From positions 1 to 39,862 of the forward strand of contig CANRJC010000015.1 in NCBI GenBank assembly GCA_947630795.1: DNA of 39,862 nt. The letters are read 5' to 3'. A program made the position numbers and the translations under genes. Each line of letters opens with the position of its first letter. The stretch's first letter is position 1. This stretch comes from an uncultured Phascolarctobacterium sp. GTDB taxonomy: Bacteria; Bacillota; Negativicutes; Acidaminococcales; Acidaminococcaceae. This document shows positions 22,819-39,862 of the stretch, in pieces. The notes beneath the pieces were generated by a model. That model did no database searches and had not been told where the DNA came from. It was given only the letters and a program-made list of their open reading frames with translations.

Positions 22819-24642
22819 ATGAAGCAAGAAGAAAATATTGCTTTGCTAAAGCAAGATTTATCCAACTTCAATATTGATCTGGGTTCCATCAGAGAGTTGC
22901 TGGACGTGAAGGTCACTACGGCCAAAAAATTGACCAGCAGCGAGTATCAATCCATTTCTGCTATTCTCACTGAAAAGCTGGGGCGGGATATCTTCCTGAA
23001 CAAGGTAGTTGATCCTGCTATATTAGGCGGTATTATCGTACAGGTAGGCGACAAAGTTTTCGATGCTTCCGCAGCCCGGAAACTGAACAAAGTCAAAGAT
23101 ATCTTCTCCGGAGTCGATATCCACGACTACGAACCTGCCAAGATAGTAGACGACCTGCAAGCTCAGTTGGAGAAGAGCACCGTTGATGCTAACCTGGAAG
23201 AAGTTGGTATCGTAGACAAGATCGGCGACGGCATCGCCAACGTTATCGGCATGAAGAACGCTATGGCCGGCGAGCTGGTAGAGTTGCCTCACGGCATTTC
23301 GGGCATGGTGCTGAACCTGAACCCCAACGACGTGGGCATCGTGCTGATGGGCGGCGAGACCGTCATCAAAGAAGGTGACCAGGTACGGCGTACCGGTCGC
23401 ATCATGGAAGTGCCCGTGGGCGAAGCATTGCTGGGCCGTGTAGTCAGCGCCATCGGCGCCCCCATCGACGGTAAGGGCGAGATCGCCGCAGCCGAGTATC
23501 GGCCGGTAGAATCTCCCGCTCACGGCATCGCCGACCGGCAACCGGTAGACACTCCCTTGCAGACCGGTCTGAAGTGCATCGACGCCCTCGTTCCCATCGG
23601 CAGAGGCCAGAGGGAACTTATCATCGGCGACCGCGGCACCGGCAAGACCGCTCTGGCCATCGACACCATCATCAATCAAAAAGGTCAAGATGTTATCTGC
23701 ATTTACGTGGCCATCGGCCAAAAGGCCTCCAATGTGGCCCGTATCGTCCGCACTTTGGAGCAGCACGGCTCCATGGAATACACCATCATCGTAGCCGCTA
23801 CCGCCGCAGACAGTGCTCCGTTGCAGTATCTGGCCCCTTACAGCGGTGTGACCATGGCCGAGTACTTCATGGATCAGGGCAAGGATGTGCTCTGCGTTTA
23901 CGACGACCTTTCCAAACACGCCGTCGCTTACAGGGCCATGTCTCTGTTGCTGCGCCGTCCTCCCGGACGCGAAGCTTATCCCGGCGACGTATTCTATCTC
24001 CACTCCAGACTGTTGGAGCGGGCTGCCAAGCTCAACTCCATCCCGCCGCTGAAAGGCGGTTCCATCACGGCTCTGCCTGTGATCGAAACTCTGGCCGGCG
24101 ACGTGGGCGGCTTCATCCCCACCAACGTCATCTCCATCACCGACGGCCAGATATTCTTGGAGTCCGAGCTCTTCTATTCCGGTATCCGTCCGGCTATCAA
24201 CTCCGGTCTTTCGGTATCCCGTGTAGGCGGCGCCGCTCAGATCAAAGCCATGAAACAAGTAGCCGGCACACTGCGTTTGGATCTGGCTCAGTACCGTGAG
24301 TTGGCCGCGTTCTCTCAGTTTGCTTCCGATCTGGACAAGGCCACCAAGGCTCAGTTGGACAGAGGCATGCGCCTTACGGAAATGCTGAAGCAAGGCCAGT
24401 ACATGCCCTTGCCGGTAGAAAAGCAGGTAATGGCTATCTATCTGGGCACCAAGGGTTATCTGGACGACGTAGCCGTTAAGGACGTTACCCGTTGTGAAAA
24501 AGAGTTCTTGGACTTTATGGATGCCAACCACCCCGAAGTGGGCGCAGACATCGTTAAGACCAAGAAGATCACCGATGAGAACGAAAAAGCGCTGAAGGAA
24601 GCTATCACCCAGTTCAAAGACGTGTTCAACGGAGCGAGGTGA
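22819..24642 (+). CDS. atpA: F0F1-ATP synthase subunit alpha with an N-terminal delta C-terminal-domain fusion
   Basis: A 607-residue protein, about 100 residues longer than normal alpha. Residues about 22-97 ([20 protein letters not shown] ... [20 protein letters not shown] ... LNKVKDIF) align by eye with the C-terminal domain of the delta/OSCP subunit, the part that binds b. Alpha proper begins at about 100 ([17 protein letters not shown]) and keeps the P-loop GDRGTGKT near residue 270 and the visible catalytic-interface motifs ([22 protein letters not shown]). The N-terminal six-helix domain of delta is absent: only 63 bases separate atpF from this start, and an in-frame TGA (22810-22812) bars any extension. 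GGAGGT lies 13 bases before ATG 22819. If translated as one chain, each F1 would hold three delta-like domains. The family calls are firm; the assembly consequence is inferred. Confidence 0.93.
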
Positions 24643-34315: not shown

Positions 34316-34913
34316 AAAAGTTTTTCGCAGCGACGTTGAAGCAGAGGGCTCCCGGAAAGTTGCTGTCGCAAAAGCAGTACAGCCATGGTTTAAGGGCAAC
34401 AGTGGTCTCAGCCGTTGCACCGTTTGCAAAGTTTTTCGGGTTCGAGAAAAGGTGGGGGAGGGTCTTGACAACGATGAGCGGCAGCCGAACGATCTTCGCA
34501 GACCGACAGACGAACAGCTTAGGTCTGTCCCTTTGGCAAAAAGACCCCACGAGAGCGGACACAGGCTTTTCAGGTAACTGAGAGGCTTGCATCCGCCTTT
34601 TCTTTTTTTGCGAGCGATCTTTTGCGAACACTATTGCGGATCGCATCTGAAGAGCTTCGAATGTACCGACGCCGACATAGAAAGATGCAAAGTTGCGGGA
34701 GAGCGGGCCGTCGAAAAGTTCGCACCCGGAGCACTCGAAGCATTTTCGAACGCCGCTCGCTCAAAAAAGCAAACGCACAAAAAGGGCTTGAACGTCTTTC
34801 TAAGTTAGGCAATGTCGCAGAACAAAAAAGGAAATGAGCGAGAGCCGACGGCAGAAGCATTCGCCGGACTATCTCGGATATATAAAAACATAAAGAACGG
34901 AGGCAAAAGGTAA
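34316..34913 (+). other. 600-base gap before the Ycf46 operon, no supported gene
   Basis: No frame here has a ribosome site and recognisable protein sequence. Short frames at 34587-34808 and 34622-34837 overlap each other in different frames and look like chance. The stretch again mixes AAAAG strings with TTCGCA/TCGCAG words. Near its end, TATATA (about 34878-34883) and GGAGGCAAAAGGT lie just before the ATG at 34914 and probably belong to the operon's promoter and ribosome site. Confidence 0.4.
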
Positions 34914-35603
34914 ATGAGTGACTACAAGATCAGTTATGCCAATCTATGTGCTATCGAAAACAGTTTGACGGCCATCGGCAACAATCTCCAAGCGATCGAC
35001 AACAATGTCGAGCAAGTGAACGACAATGTTAAGATCGTTTACGACGAATTAGGCGCTTTGGCCCGCGACTTTCACAGTTTTGTGCAGATCCAGCTCAGGG
35101 CTAATGCTCTGTCCAAAGCACAGCAGAGAGTCATCCAGATCAGACAGGAACTGGAGAAGCGCTTCGGGCACTACGATATCGTAAGAAGGACCACTACCGG
35201 CATCCTTCAGGCAGATGACCTCGGCATCGTCAAAAGGAACACCATCAGCAATGCTACCGAAGAACTTATGATCTCCACTCCCGGCTATTGGTTGGCTCCT
35301 TGTTTGGTGGCTCTTGCCGCTTGGATCAACGACCAGCCCGAATTGGCCGAGCGGGCTCTCAAGGAAGGGCTCAAGAGGAACGACGAAAAGACCTCTCTCT
35401 TCTTTGCATTGATCTGCAGAAGAGCCGACAGAAAGAGCGCCGCTCTCAAGTGGACTAGGCGGTATCTCGCCGACCAGGACGAGGAAAATATCGACAGAAA
35501 GACAGTCATCGTACTCGATGCTTTCGCAAGCGGTCTGCTGGGCCCCGACACGGAAGGCGTAGTTTCCGAGCAGATCGGCGAATGGCTGGAACGGCTTGCC
35601 TAA
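34914..35603 (+). pseudogene. First gene of the Ycf46-like operon, N-terminal part before an in-frame TAA
   Basis: A family I do not recognise. Residues 1-60 are predicted coiled coil (YANLCAIENSLTAIGNNLQA and VEQVNDNVKIVYDELGALAR), followed by a helical repeat-like region (WLAPCLVALAAWINDQPELAERALKEGLKRND) reminiscent of TPR-type pairs. The frame ends at TAA 35601-35603 after GEWLERLA, and the same frame then continues as sensible protein (RPGFVEQQTKQWSDAINLKR) into the next part with no gap. The complete gene would be 575 codons (34914-36641). A Glu codon (GAA) would restore the gene by a single G-to-T reversal. Ribosome site GGAGG lies upstream. Whether the truncated 229-residue product functions is unknown. 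Confidence 0.7.
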
Positions 35604-36641
35604 AGGCCCGGCTTTGTCGAACAGCAGACCAAGCAGTGGTCCGACGCTATCAACCTCAAGAGAAAGCCCTTCGGTACCGATGATTATACCTATCTTCGCA
35701 AGTACAGCAAAACTTGGCCCGTCCTGCAGGATATCATGGAGGGGGCCATGCTCCATGCTGAAATTTTGGCTTACTTCACGGCCATCTTCGAACAGGAGAC
35801 TTCCAACGATACGTTGAAGGCACAGTTGGACGAGATCCTGAACACATTGGTCTCGGAATTCGACGAAGAAGAAGTCCCCCTGCGGAAAGAAGAAAAATAT
35901 AACCAGTTCGTCATTGATTTTGACGGCGATGAGGATCGCGCCCGCCGCAATATGGCTATCGAGCAGACGACTTTCGAGGAGCGCAAAGACTTTACCCAGT
36001 TGCTCACCGATGCGGCAATGAAGCCTCAAAGCTCTCACGCAAGTGCTTCTGCCCAAAAGTTCGCTCTCGCTCTTTCCAAAGATTGGGTCAGCAACGCCTA
36101 CAACGACGTCGTTGCTCAAAACAGGATGAAGATCCCCAACGAGATCGAGATCAATGTCGACACTTTCAACGACAAGACGACCGACGGGCAGAACGAGACC
36201 GAACTCATCGAAAGGTTCACTGCCTTGGTAGATAAGGAAAAAGAAAGCGCGTTGGCACCGATCGTGCTCACCGCATTCAATAAGTTCTGTAAGTGGGGCG
36301 GCTGCGCCATCGGCGTTATCGGCTTGCTCATGATGCTCACCGGCAGCATCTTCCTCGGCCTGATAGCGGTCATCGCCGGTATCGGTATGGTCATCAACCA
36401 CTATTCCAAAAAGAAAGCGGTGGAACAGCTCCGCCGGGAGTTGGAAGCTAAGTTCGAAGAAAAACGGGAGACCGGCACGCAGATCATCAGAGCTGTTCTG
36501 GCCGAAGTAGTGGACTTTAGAGCCGAATTTGCGGAAAAAGACGCCGAGAGCCAAAAGGTCATCGACTTCCTCGAGCAACTCAGCCCGGAACAATATGTAA
36601 GAAAACAGGCCGATTCGAGCCGTAGGATCAAGGTCCGCTGA
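35604..36641 (+). pseudogene. First gene of the Ycf46-like operon, C-terminal membrane part after the TAA
   Basis: Continuation in frame of 34914-35603. The first ATG in it is at 35736, but the 44 codons before that are protein-like (PFGTDDYTYLRKYSKTWPVL), so the real gene includes them. It shows long charged helices, then one hydrophobic hairpin at about 36295-36400 (WGGCAIGVIGLLMMLTGSIF, then LGLIAVIAGIGMVIN), probably two transmembrane passes, then a coiled-coil tail (KKKAVEQLRRELEAKFEEKR). A membrane-anchored scaffold or channel-like partner for the AAA+ protein encoded downstream is plausible but unproven. The next gene starts 15 bases later. Confidence 0.7.
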
Positions 36642-36656
36642 AGGGGGTAAAGAAAA

Positions 36657-36944
36657 ATGGATGCTAAAAGCAAAGCAAAATTTATAAATTCTGTCGATGC
36701 CGGGACCGAGGTGCCTCGCCCCGACTGCGGTGCAAGCGAAACGGTCGGCAGCAGCCTTTGCGATCCCTGCACCGAAACGCCGGCGGCTCCCGCGGCCGAC
36801 GCCGCACCTCTGTTTGCGCCGATGAAAGAGAGGATCGTCGCACCCGCAAGGGCGAAAAAATATATTGAACACCGGAGCGCTTTTGCGGAAGGGCTGCCCG
36901 AGTGGAGCATCGAGCCCCCTCAGGTGCCGATAAGGAGGCACTGA
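36657..36944 (+). CDS. Small zinc-ribbon-like protein with a missing first cysteine
   Basis: A 95-residue protein of unknown function. Residues about 20-40 read VPRPDCGASETVGSSLCDPC, close to a double-knuckle zinc ribbon (CPxCGA ... CxxC), but the first Cys is Arg (CGC where TGC would be expected). The rest is Pro/Ala-rich and probably disordered, with a basic segment ERIVAPARAKKYIEHRSAF. The strong ribosome site AAGGGGGT precedes the ATG, and the gene is spaced 15 bases from the preceding and 4 bases from the following gene, so it belongs to the operon. Coding is supported by context rather than by a family match. Confidence 0.65.
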   Translation: MDAKSKAKFINSVDAGTEVPRPDCGASETVGSSLCDPCTETPAAPAADAAPLFAPMKERIVAPARAKKYIEHRSAFAEGLPEWSIEPPQVPIRRH

Positions 36945-36948
36945 TCGT

Positions 36949-37410
36949 ATGGCGAGCGCAGCTATCGCCCCTCCGAAAACATATTATGAGTGGGCCGCCG
37001 TTTTAGATAGGCTCAAAGTCAAAGAGGATGACGATGCGGTCCTTGCCGCTATGCAAAAAGGCACCATACAGTGGCAAGCAGGCGTCGCCGAACGGTTCGC
37101 AAAAAAGCTGATCGATGCTATCAATTGGCGAATGAATGCCGCTTCCGACAGATTTCGCAAGGAAATGACTCGTTCCAACGGACAGGAGAGAGCCATCGTG
37201 CAGGCTCTTCTTGCCCTCCGCAAGGAGCTGTGTTTTTTGGCTAAAGCCATCGATCTTCCGGCTATCCCGGAGAAGGATCGGCAGCAGTATCGCCGCTTGG
37301 TGCTCGAACAGGCGAACAGCATGCAGTCTTCTCTTGAAGATTCTGCGAAGAAAGACCGCAGCGGCAAACTGGCAAGTATCGTGAGAAATAATAGAGTGAA
37401 CGCATTTTGA
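36949..37410 (+). CDS. Helical protein of unknown function in the Ycf46-like operon
   Basis: A 153-residue, mostly helical, charged protein with no signal peptide or membrane segment (WAAVLDRLKVKEDDDAVLAA, AERFAKKLIDAINWRMNAAS, ERAIVQALLALRKELCFLAK). I do not recognise the family. The ribosome site AAGGAGG lies 7-8 bases before ATG 36949, only 4 bases after the previous stop, and the next gene begins 15 bases after its stop. It is probably a soluble partner of the AAA+ ATPase. Confidence 0.75.
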   Translation: MASAAIAPPKTYYEWAAVLDRLKVKEDDDAVLAAMQKGTIQWQAGVAERFAKKLIDAINWRMNAASDRFRKEMTRSNGQERAIVQALLALRKELCFLAKAIDLPAIPEKDRQQYRRLVLEQANSMQSSLEDSAKKDRSGKLASIVRNNRVNAF

Positions 37411-37425
37411 AGGGAGAGATGATAC

Positions 37426-39000
37426 ATGAGTGATGTGGCAAAGAGCAAAGAACTTTTGAAAAGATACTCTATCGCTCGCATCCCTTTCATAGCTATCAAC
37501 ACGATCGAAAGAGCAAGGACATTGCAGATCTTGAAAGAGATCTCCGAGGAACTGTCGCTGACTTTTTATGTCCATACGCTGTCCAAGGGCCTCTGCGATC
37601 TGGGTACGGATAAGTCGATCAACGATGACAAATCCGTATACGGGGCTATCGACTTTATGAGTGAGCAAATGAAGCGCAAACAGTATATGACGCTCATTTT
37701 GACCGAAGTCCCCGATATCAGCGGCGATAACAGCGATGCAAGACAGATCTTGGACTTGGTCACCTTGGCCAATGAATCAGGCGGCGTGGTGATGGTCCTC
37801 ACCAATAACGCCGTTTGGAGCCAGCTGCAAAGATCGGGCATGGTCATCAAGATCGACCTGCCTAACGAAGACGAGATGTATTCCATCATCAAAGAATACA
37901 TAGACGATTATCGGTCTGAGATCCCCATCGAATGGGATAACGGCGATATTCGCGAAGCCGCCTCCATGTTGGCCGGCGTGACCCGCATCGAAGCCGAAAA
38001 CGTGATCGCTGCTTTGATAGCGAATAAAAGCATCAAAAAATCCGATATGGACGAGATCAGATATGCGAAAGACAGACTGTTTTCCGATATCTCCGGCTTG
38101 GAAAAGATCGAGGTGGACGAGAGCGTAAAAGATGTCGGCGGCTTGGCCGGTCTCAGAAAATGGTTAGAGGAAAAGAAAGCGCTCCTTACCCCCGAAAAAC
38201 GCGACAAATTACGTGCGAAAGGCTTGCAGCCGCCCAGGGGGATCCTGCTCGTCGGTGTTCCCGGCTGCGGCAAATCTCTCTCCGCAAAGTCGATCGCCGC
38301 CAACTGGAAGTTGCCGCTCTATCGTTTGGATTTCGCTACGGTCCAAGGCAGTTACGTCGGTCAGTCCGAGCAGCAATTAAAGGATGCTTTGACTACGGCA
38401 GAGAATGTATCGCCTTGTATCCTCTGGATCGACGAGATCGAAAAAGGTCTGTCCGGCGCAGGCAGCTCCAACGACGGCGGCGTATCCACCCGTATGGTGG
38501 GACAGTTCCTGTTCTGGCTCCAGGAGTGCAAAAAGCAAGTGTTCGTCGTAGCGACCGCCAATGATGTTTCCATGCTCCCCTCCGAACTTTTGCGCAGAGG
38601 CAGATTCGACGAGCTGTTCTTCATCGATCTGCCGACGGCCGAAGAACGCAGAGAGATCCTAACGCTCTACATGCGTAAATATTTGGAACTTGCTTTCACC
38701 GGGCCGTTTGCAGACAAGATCGTAGAACTCACCGACGGATTTACGGGCGCCGACCTTGAATCCACCGTGAGGGATCTGGCTTATCGTTTCATCGCCAACA
38801 GCAATTTTGCGCTCAACGAAGAAAATATGATCACGGCATTCAACAATGTCGTGCCTCTTTCGCAGACCAGCCCCGAAAAGATCGAAGCGATCCGCGATTG
38901 GGGCAAAGAGCGGGCTGTGCCCGCTTCCGGCAAACCCATCGGCGGCGAGGAGCTCTCTCAGAAAAAGAGCGGTCCCAAGACACGCAAAGTGTTGGTGTGA
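37426..39000 (+). CDS. Ycf46-like AAA+ ATPase
   Basis: A 524-residue AAA+ protein whose layout matches the Ycf46 family of cyanobacteria and plastids. Residues about 1-165 form a degenerate ATPase-like domain without Walker motifs (RIPFIAINTIERARTLQILK; VVMVLTNNAVWSQL). The active AAA+ domain begins near 240 (VKDVGGLAGLRKWLEEKK). Walker A is GVPGCGKSLSAKS (Lys283), Walker B is ILWIDEIEKG (Asp336, Glu337), sensor 1 is VVATANDVSMLP, and the arginine-finger region is LLRRGRFDELFFIDLP. Such ATPases are thought to remodel protein complexes. Its operon partners include a membrane coiled-coil protein, so membrane-associated remodelling is a reasonable guess. All catalytic residues are intact, unlike the first gene. 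Confidence 0.9.
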   Translation: MSDVAKSKELLKRYSIARIPFIAINTIERARTLQILKEISEELSLTFYVHTLSKGLCDLGTDKSINDDKSVYGAIDFMSEQMKRKQYMTLILTEVPDISGDNSDARQILDLVTLANESGGVVMVLTNNAVWSQLQRSGMVIKIDLPNEDEMYSIIKEYIDDYRSEIPIEWDNGDIREAASMLAGVTRIEAENVIAALIANKSIKKSDMDEIRYAKDRLFSDISGLEKIEVDESVKDVGGLAGLRKWLEEKKALLTPEKRDKLRAKGLQPPRGILLVGVPGCGKSLSAKSIAANWKLPLYRLDFATVQGSYVGQSEQQLKDALTTAENVSPCILWIDEIEKGLSGAGSSNDGGVSTRMVGQFLFWLQECKKQVFVVATANDVSMLPSELLRRGRFDELFFIDLPTAEERREILTLYMRKYLELAFTGPFADKIVELTDGFTGADLESTVRDLAYRFIANSNFALNEENMITAFNNVVPLSQTSPEKIEAIRDWGKERAVPASGKPIGGEELSQKKSGPKTRKVLV

Positions 39001-39166
39001 TGATGCTGCGCAGAGTTGCGGCGGAGGCAAGAACGCATCCGAACACGCTCTTTCGACATTGAAAGACAACGCTTTCGAAGAGGAAGCCCGAAAGATCGGG
39101 TCGAATCTTTGCGAACATCGACGCGATCATGAAAAGCGGGGAAAAGGAGGGACCGTCGAATGCCTA
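39000..39166 (+). other. Possible small or broken gene between the AAA+ gene and the last gene
   Basis: ATG 39000 overlaps the AAA+ stop (TGATGATG) and reads MMLRRVAAEARTHPNTLFRH before TGA 39060-39062. The same frame then runs on as sensible sequence (RIFANIDAIMKSGEKEGPSNA) to a TAG that overlaps the next gene's ATG. A second frame gives ALSTLKDNAFEEEARKIGSN in the middle, so a frameshift is also possible. The start and end overlaps suggest a real 55-codon gene with damage, but coding is not certain. Confidence 0.35.
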
Positions 39167-39663
39167 GACCTATGTTGAGACAGCCCCAAAGCCAACAGCA
39201 AACGAACACTATCCTAAGCGCAGCCCCAACACAGCGGCAAACGCAACAGACTCGGCAAACGGATAAAATGAAATTGGACAGGCTGCTTCGCAAAACACGC
39301 TCGAAAGAATATATGGAAGCGATGCACAGACTGGATGCCGGCGGACATGTACACAATCGTCACAAGGTAGAGGAGCTCATAGATATCATAGGAAAGGAAT
39401 TTCCCGAAGTCGAAATGAGCGACCTCACCGACATCATGCTGGGCATCGTTTCCGTTTGCTATTTGGGCAGACCCTACGAAGTCCATACTCTGGATATGAC
39501 CGGTCAGATAATCGAACATTACAAGAGCGGGCAGACCCTTCCCGGCGGACTTGAAAAGGCTCGTTCTATCGCTTTGCGCGGCGGTTATGATTTTATCGAG
39601 GTCTATACGGATTGCTGCAGATGCGTAAGCTCTACCGGCACAGTCTCGGTAGTCAACATATGA
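39160..39663 (+). CDS. Last gene of the Ycf46-like operon, unknown function
   Basis: A 167-residue protein with a low-complexity, Gln/Thr-rich, probably disordered N-terminus (residues 1-36), then a basic helix (KMKLDRLLRKTRSKEYMEAM) and a folded alpha/beta part (HNRHKVEELIDIIGKEFPEV, ... LPGGLEKARSIALRGGYDFI) ending in a cysteine cluster YTDCCRCVSSTG. I do not recognise the family. AGGAGGG lies 8 bases before the ATG. The terminator at 39671-39709 directly follows, so this closes the operon. The cysteines could bind metal together with those of the zinc-ribbon-like protein, but this is speculation. Confidence 0.72.
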   Translation: MPRPMLRQPQSQQQTNTILSAAPTQRQTQQTRQTDKMKLDRLLRKTRSKEYMEAMHRLDAGGHVHNRHKVEELIDIIGKEFPEVEMSDLTDIMLGIVSVCYLGRPYEVHTLDMTGQIIEHYKSGQTLPGGLEKARSIALRGGYDFIEVYTDCCRCVSSTGTVSVVNI

Positions 39664-39670
39664 GCAAAAG

Positions 39671-39709
39671 GCAACACCGGCCGTTTTTCACGGATCGCCG
39701 GTGTTTTGC
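39671..39709 (+). terminator. Terminator of the Ycf46-like operon
   Basis: CACCGGC (39675-39681) pairs with GCCGGTG (39697-39703), with an inner CCGT / ACGG stem, followed by TTTTGCTTTATT. Confidence 0.8.
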
Positions 39710-39725
39710 TTTATTGTATGAAGAA

Positions 39726-39777
39726 AACCCCCACTTTTAGTGGGGGTTCTAAAAACTTATAGTTATGGACAGTCCAT
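39726..39777 (+). mobile_element. Left end of an IS200/IS605-family element
   Basis: A 10-bp hairpin (AACCCCCACT / AGTGGGGGTT, TTT loop) at 39726-39748 and a small palindrome ATGGACAGTCCAT at 39765-39777 lie about 100 bases before a transposase start. Subterminal hairpins recognised by TnpA are the mark of IS200/IS605 ends, which lack terminal inverted repeats. The exact outer boundary cannot be set without the right end, which is outside the window. Confidence 0.6.
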
Positions 39778-39844
39778 TCGGCAATCCTATGCTAAAATGG
39801 TTAAAGGCCAGCCAGCCACACCAGAGCGGAAAGGAGAAGAACGA

Positions 39845-39862
39845 ATGGACAAGAATAGTCTA
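39845..39862 (+). CDS. tnpA: IS200/IS605-type transposase TnpA, first six codons only
   Basis: ATG 39845, with AAAGGAGAAG upstream, reads MDKNSL before the window ends. This matches the usual start of IS200-type Y1 HUH transposases, and the hairpin at 39726-39748 upstream agrees. Six codons alone are weak evidence, so the call rests mostly on the combination. Confidence 0.6.

Follow-up and report, generated by a model that had tools for sequence, protein, structure and literature searches.

Close to the right end of the 39,862-nucleotide stretch analysed here (the window; contig CANRJC010000015.1 of an uncultured Phascolarctobacterium sp.) lie five tightly spaced genes, g1 to g5 (34914-39663, all on the plus strand), grouped around a Ycf46-type AAA+ ATPase encoded by g4. 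These five genes clearly act as one unit. We suggest, with a probability of about 0.5, that the unit is a horizontally acquired, self-contained, membrane-tethered five-protein AAA+ machine with tail-docked partners and an accessory role. The motor is of a known kind, and the system surrounding it is uncatalogued. No description of the cassette was found in the literature; the coverage of this search was incomplete and an earlier description is possible.

Linkage and co-divergence of the five genes

With the ATPase as bait, 80 loci were collected from species-level genomes and then scanned for the other four proteins by means of their profiles. Partners are present in 64 of the loci, the ATPases of which are 34-99% identical to g4 of the window, and 49 of these 64 have a flank long enough to judge (the full-context set). 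In this set g1 accompanies the ATPase in 49/49 loci, g3 in 47/49, the g2 peptide in 43/49 and g5 in 39/49, whereas all four are absent from 16/16 other Ycf46-type loci. The genes thus travel together beside the ATPase, a point that the sequence-only reading of the window had proposed to check, and the partners are neither unlinked to it nor familiar housekeeping proteins. Searches of g1, g2, g3 and g5 against Pfam, NCBIfam, PADLOC and PHROGs gave no credible family, in line with the initial impression that the partners belong to no recognisable family. The genes flanking the cassette outside g1-g5 are not conserved, so that the set is indeed self-contained. When profiles of g1 and of g5 were used as the starting point instead, each matched exactly the two viral contigs on which g4 is also present.

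The proteins also diverge in concert. Pairwise distances of g1, g3, g4 and g5 in 51 loci correlate with r of 0.78-0.85, and none of 999 permutations was as high. Because of this linkage and co-divergence we conclude that the five genes co-operate.

Two gene orders occur. Type A (g1-g2-g3-g4-g5) is found in gut Bacillota, Streptococcus, Fusobacterium vincentii and the window; type B (g5-g1-g2-g3-g4) is found in Pseudomonadota, Bacteroidota, Actinomycetota, Paenibacillus and relatives. In the window the successive intergenic gaps are 15, 4, 15 and 159 nt, which confirms the compact operon proposed at the outset, and the reading frames of g2, g3, g4 and g5 are intact. The small gene suspected between g4 and g5 is rejected: the gap measures 1 to ~180 nt in most type A relatives and contains no conserved open reading frame. 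In one single cassette (L043, 11667-12563) a DUF4428 zinc-binding gene is inserted between g4 and g5.

Ten full-context loci lack g5 and fall into two groups of the ATPase tree. The greatest divergence is seen in one of the groups, variant C (L085-L088, L092 and L094), in which four loci (L086, L087, L092 and L094) have three g1-like genes each, together with an upstream trio encoding an SPFH/Band_7 protein that bears a double zinc ribbon (2.2e-31 in L087), a small membrane protein, and a protein of 664-668 residues with an N-terminal zinc ribbon, which matches no known family.

The motor and its partners

The g4 gene (37426-39000) encodes a protein of 524 residues with a Pfam AAA match of 1.4e-29. 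Its identification as a Ycf46-like ATPase with intact catalytic motifs stands: Walker A, Walker B, sensor 1 and the arginine finger are all present, the Walker A, Walker B and arginine-finger regions are kept in 60/60 homologues, and the pore aromatic residue Y310 is kept in 54/60. The N-terminal half is free of a P-loop (no G....GK[ST] in any of the 60 homologues), and no solved relative was found for it. By sequence, the nearest solved relatives of g4 are VCP-like ATPases (3.9e-70), and the C-terminal domain is CDC48/p97-like. The pore aromatic is common to g4 and CDC48/p97; however, g4 has a single P-loop, unlike CDC48/p97 and the proteasomal ATPases as compared here.

Plastid/cyanobacterial and bacterial members of the Ycf46 family resemble g4 over its whole length (32-39% identity) and have the same build, with a P-loop-free N-terminal half followed by a C-terminal AAA+ domain. 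The cassette ATPases nevertheless stand apart as one group with 100/100 support in a maximum-likelihood tree. The partners of the other Ycf46-type ATPases are also different, as judged by eye: NrdG-like, DUF1257-like and DUF2997-like genes, which adjoin the ATPase in L100, L107 and L111 and do not occur beside the cassette g4. Comparison of g5 with the DUF1257-like set showed no relation (hhalign probability 0.5%).

The g1 gene (34914-36641) spans 575 codons, of which codon 230 is an in-frame TAA (35601-35603) that splits the gene; this is the nonsense change that had been noticed in the first gene. An AlphaFold2 model based on 53 sequences (mean predicted local distance difference test score, pLDDT, 85) comprises a 93-residue N-terminal coiled-coil helix, a TPR-like helical middle and a long C-terminal helix. 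A hydrophobic two-helix hairpin (residues ~454-500), which precedes the C-terminal helix, is present in 53/53 homologues, which supports the membrane link supposed for this protein. The middle part matches TPR proteins at Z of about 10-11.6 among the best VIA-align rows, values that stay below 13, the level under which helical repeats call for caution. Identification of g1 as an alpha-pore-forming toxin is rejected: the Foldseek likeness to tripartite toxins of this kind is unconvincing (E 8e-3, TM score 0.17), and the best VIA-align rows are TPR proteins. Comparison with BFVD gave no convincing match.

A close relative of the window strain is a sister genome, also an uncultured Phascolarctobacterium sp. 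(L032/G012), which matches the cassette and ~15 kb upstream of it at 95-96% identity and has g1 intact, without the stop. Against this copy the ratio of nonsynonymous to synonymous substitutions (dN/dS) of g1 is 0.071 before the stop and 0.068 after it. The ratio is 0.02 for g4, 0.19 for g3 and 0.23 for g5; all parts of the cassette are under purifying selection. Since the g1 ratio is equal on either side of the TAA, selection has acted on the operon almost up to the present, and the stop is either of very recent origin or an error of assembly.

The three remaining proteins are small. In g2 (36657-36944; 95 residues) conservation is restricted to the C-terminal FAEGLPEWSIEPPQVPIRRH peptide, which follows the pattern LPxWxxxPP and then basic residues; the remainder of the protein is unconserved. 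In the form [LF]PxW[DSN]xxP(P) the peptide lies between g1 and g3 in the 43 full-context loci counted above. The description of g2 as zinc-ribbon-like is rejected: its Cys residues fall in an unconserved stretch that neither the sister nor the other aligned relatives possess. The g3 protein (36949-37410; 153 residues) is helical and has a near-invariant Y..W motif close to its N-terminus; the only matches obtained for it are weak ones to helical segments. The g5 protein (39160-39663; 167 residues) consists of a variable Gln-rich N-terminus and a compact alpha+beta domain, for which the model is confident (pLDDT about 95). Residues R47, D59, C100, H109, H120, E147 and G160 are invariant among 37 sequences, and the invariant Cys with the two His might form an enzyme or metal site, although this is a guess. 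The terminal Cys cluster pointed out earlier in g5 is absent outside Bacillota, and the invariant Cys is C100. No sequence relative of g5 was found, nor any PDB fold match above Z 3.2.

A terminal motif and the proposed assembly

The C-terminus of g4 ends in KTRKVLV in the window, RRQVLG in Comamonas and KRSIII in Flavobacterium. In 36/37 full-context loci with g5, the last ten residues of g4 contain the pattern [RK]-x-hydrophobic-hydrophobic, the exception being the frameshifted L050 cassette; in loci without g5 it is found in 0/10. Shuffling would give 2.4. A similar motif begins g5 (MPRPML in the window, MARSIL) in 28/37 sequences and ends g3 in 22/28 type B loci, and many g1 proteins finish with a looser form, TxRRIxV. 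What gives the case weight is the persistence of the motif from phylum to phylum at the end of a g4 tail that otherwise varies.

20S proteasomes receive the C-terminal tails of proteasomal ATPases. By likeness to these tails, we infer that the g4 tail is a docking motif. Proteasomal ATPases carry a hydrophobic-tyrosine-X (HbYX) tail, and the partner-tied g4 tail appears similar in logic; it is not itself HbYX, because R[RK]x[IVL][LIV] has no tyrosine. As to the partner, g5 has no proteasome-like sequence match, and its fold gave no clear match (best Z 3.2). Among the other Ycf46-type ATPases, L097, L098, L100, L107 and L111 have a common but different tail, RGGRTLDF in L107 and L111 and alike in the rest. 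A partner-tied tail may hence be a general feature of Ycf46 ATPases.

We propose the following assembly. The g4 motor, recognised by its motifs, would form a hexamer and remodel or unfold protein substrates via a p97-like pore. It would be tethered by g1 at the inner face of the membrane, with the two-helix hairpin seen in the sequence as the anchor and the coiled-coil/TPR-like part serving as a scaffold; the topology of g1 and its contact with g4 are presumed. The g2 protein is probably an adaptor, mostly a variable carrier of its single conserved C-terminal peptide, and g3 is presumably a helical adaptor. The g5 protein would dock on the basic-hydrophobic tails of g4 as a cofactor, gate or enzyme. 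Since the motif recurs on g5, on the g3 of some family members and, more loosely, on g1, one receptor could gather the whole complex. The biological role would be accessory, in stress or conflict at the membrane.

Distribution and possible roles

The carriers belong to at least seven phyla: Bacillota, Mycoplasmatota, Fusobacteriota, Pseudomonadota, Bacteroidota, Actinomycetota and, with one genome, Eremiobacterota/Vulcanimicrobiota. The distribution is sporadic. Among 397 genomes sampled across the phylum, the window's own genome excluded, g1 was found in one, and this single carrier holds g1, g3, g4 and g5. Within the order, a few genomes hold intact or near-intact copies, and two (G001 and G005) hold decayed ones. 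Sporadic distribution and decayed copies bear out the accessory nature first ascribed to the operon.

The g4 of the window shares 81% identity with the ATPase in Javan368, a satellite-phage record from Streptococcus oralis, but 64-65% with two ATPase copies in the window's own family, clear evidence of transfer among Bacillota of the gut and mouth. The cassette adjoins rpsD in S. oralis genomes, one of which also has a remnant of an integrase there, and rpsD is an integration site of phage-inducible chromosomal islands (PICIs) in group B Streptococcus (PMC7487436). The cassette stands at the far end of Javan368 and may be its cargo or a mere neighbour. Further carriers are plasmids of Comamonas and Komagataeibacter and two viral contigs; altogether the cassette was found in 4/72,556 plasmid records and 1/50,697 phage records. 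No DNA match to the Comamonas ATPase was found in E. coli genomes. On one contig from a viral collection (L113, 13752-16848), the genes adjoining the cassette encode a ThiF protein that includes a JAB-like domain (9e-30) and an E2-like protein of prokaryotic type (1.8e-6), and this group looks like a ubiquitin-like conjugation set.

In the window the operon is closed by one terminator-like hairpin, as had been proposed. The hairpin (39664-39717, plus strand) has an energy of -22.9 kcal/mol and z of -3.8, with 1/200 shuffles as good, and a T-rich stretch follows on its 3' side; a simple pattern scan overlooked it because its loop is long. The adjoining IS200-type element was likewise recognised correctly. 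Its left end (39740-39862, plus strand), truncated by the end of the contig, is a neighbour outside the cassette and has 8 matches within the genome, and a second copy codes for a TnpA-like transposase. Upstream of g1, the region 34316-34913 contains no convincing gene. Positions 1-77 of the window are repeat-like, as is the right end of the contig, and match, in reverse, the sister contig just past the sister's cassette.

Elsewhere in the window, a HigBA-like toxin-antitoxin pair (minus strand) and a VapC/PIN-like gene, both recognised by eye, lie near its start (379-1006 and 1458-1859). The ATP synthase alpha gene (22819-24642; 607 codons) begins with the C-terminal domain of the delta subunit and is thus a delta-alpha fusion, which the sister genome shares at 100% identity. 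The genome yielded no further delta/OSCP gene; therefore the N-terminal domain of delta seems to be missing.

Several points weigh against the horizontally acquired, tail-docked machine proposed above. In Actinomycetota, Pseudomonadota and Bacteroidota the ATPase forms one clade each, therefore transfer between these phyla is rare. The motif at the end of g3 is limited to the g5-first arrangement and occurs in 0/9 type A loci. The association of the g4 tail with g5 has a Fisher p of 2e-9, which is overstated because only one or two evolutionary changes underlie it: the ATPase tree needs two for the tail, and a single one is also possible. Finally, the motor itself says little about the role, as this group of AAA+ motors is used for many different functions. 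For the role, anti-phage or mobile-element conflict is one possibility, less likely than not; something else is as likely, and envelope maintenance slightly less so.

A specific scheme of immunity would have the motor sense or unfold an invader protein and the g1 hairpin kill or arrest the cell; either g5 or g3 would act as the trigger or the brake. It agrees with the sporadic distribution, with decay and transfer among gut Bacillota, with the position in Javan368 and beside rpsD, a PICI site, and with the weak resemblance of g1 to pore-forming toxins. AbiD-like genes also adjoin two cassettes: each set of neighbours has one AbiD-like PADLOC match, and these are most likely the homologous cassette neighbours in S. 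oralis (L040, 12429-13388) and in a Bacilli metagenome-assembled genome (L076, 2-865). However, strong PADLOC matches are no commoner in adjacent genes than further out in the same loci. At a threshold of 1e-15, 275 near neighbours from 57 loci were compared with 140 genes further out, and the counts of families (9 and 31 near, 27 listed further out, many of them several models per protein) show no enrichment, although a wider defence island would escape this test because the controls share the same ~20 kb loci. The defence-island context once envisaged for the cassette is thus not supported. Matches of the cassette itself to PADLOC-DB, version 2023, in which newer defence systems may be missed, are limited to a generic AAA domain and one unrepeated hit. 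The former is the IetA match of g4 (3e-34), confined to the AAA domain; in NCBIfam, IetA scores 89 bits against a cut-off of 510. The IetAS partner is a subtilisin-like protease, whereas no protease family is found in g1, g2, g3 or g5. The latter is a match of the C-terminal half of the window g1 to LeoBC of Eleos (2.4e-6), unrepeated at 0.1 in five other intact g1 homologues; the partner in Eleos is a dynamin-like GTPase, and the cassette contains no GTPase family. Moreover, many copies lie amid housekeeping genes, and plasmid and phage records rarely contain the cassette. The scheme is possible but doubtful.

Just as doubtful is a part in the upkeep of the envelope, with the motor dismantling or extracting membrane protein assemblies under membrane stress and g1 as a membrane scaffold. 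The hairpin found in every g1 fits this idea, as does the SPFH/Band_7 double-zinc-ribbon protein that joins the cassette in four loci of the g5-less variant C. When the membrane of B. subtilis is under stress, PspA is recruited to it by the SPFH protein YdjI with YdjG/YdjH (PMC8581546), and because of this role of YdjI the trio of variant C, which shares with PspA-YdjGHI the SPFH zinc-ribbon protein and a zinc-ribbon/membrane pair, points to the membrane. Yet the SPFH gene is confined to the most divergent variant; neither it nor PspA is found with the window cassette, and no AAA+ ATPase gene belongs to the pspA-ydjGHI operon of B. subtilis. One genome in 397 is also a patchier distribution than would be expected for a generally useful stress system. 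It is quite unlikely that the operon is a degraded leftover, a former mobile-element cassette now functionless in the window strain: the nonsense codon in g1 and the decayed copies in related genomes would suit this account, but the dN/dS values, as low in g1 after the stop as before it and lowest in g4, and the intact sister copy contradict it. The reading of g4 as an ordinary Ycf46 ATPase of housekeeping type with chance neighbours draws support from the placement of the ATPase domain in the Ycf46/CDC48-like group; barring an error in the sampling of loci, it is refuted by linkage, complete for g1 within the clade and nil outside it, where other Ycf46 loci have different partners.

Returning to the membrane-tethered machine with tail-docked partners, we cautiously raise the possibility that it represents an undescribed kind of system, in which four new families, one terminal linear motif and a g5 receptor would make up an immunity or membrane-stress cassette spread thinly over this range of phyla. 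A unit kept across phyla and under purifying selection, with zero annotated partners, is a well-defined remaining unknown of bacterial genomes. In g1-g5 it offers a clear minimal unit with a predicted short docking motif, and the Ycf46-type ATPases, the function of which is poorly known, gain a link to a membrane partner.

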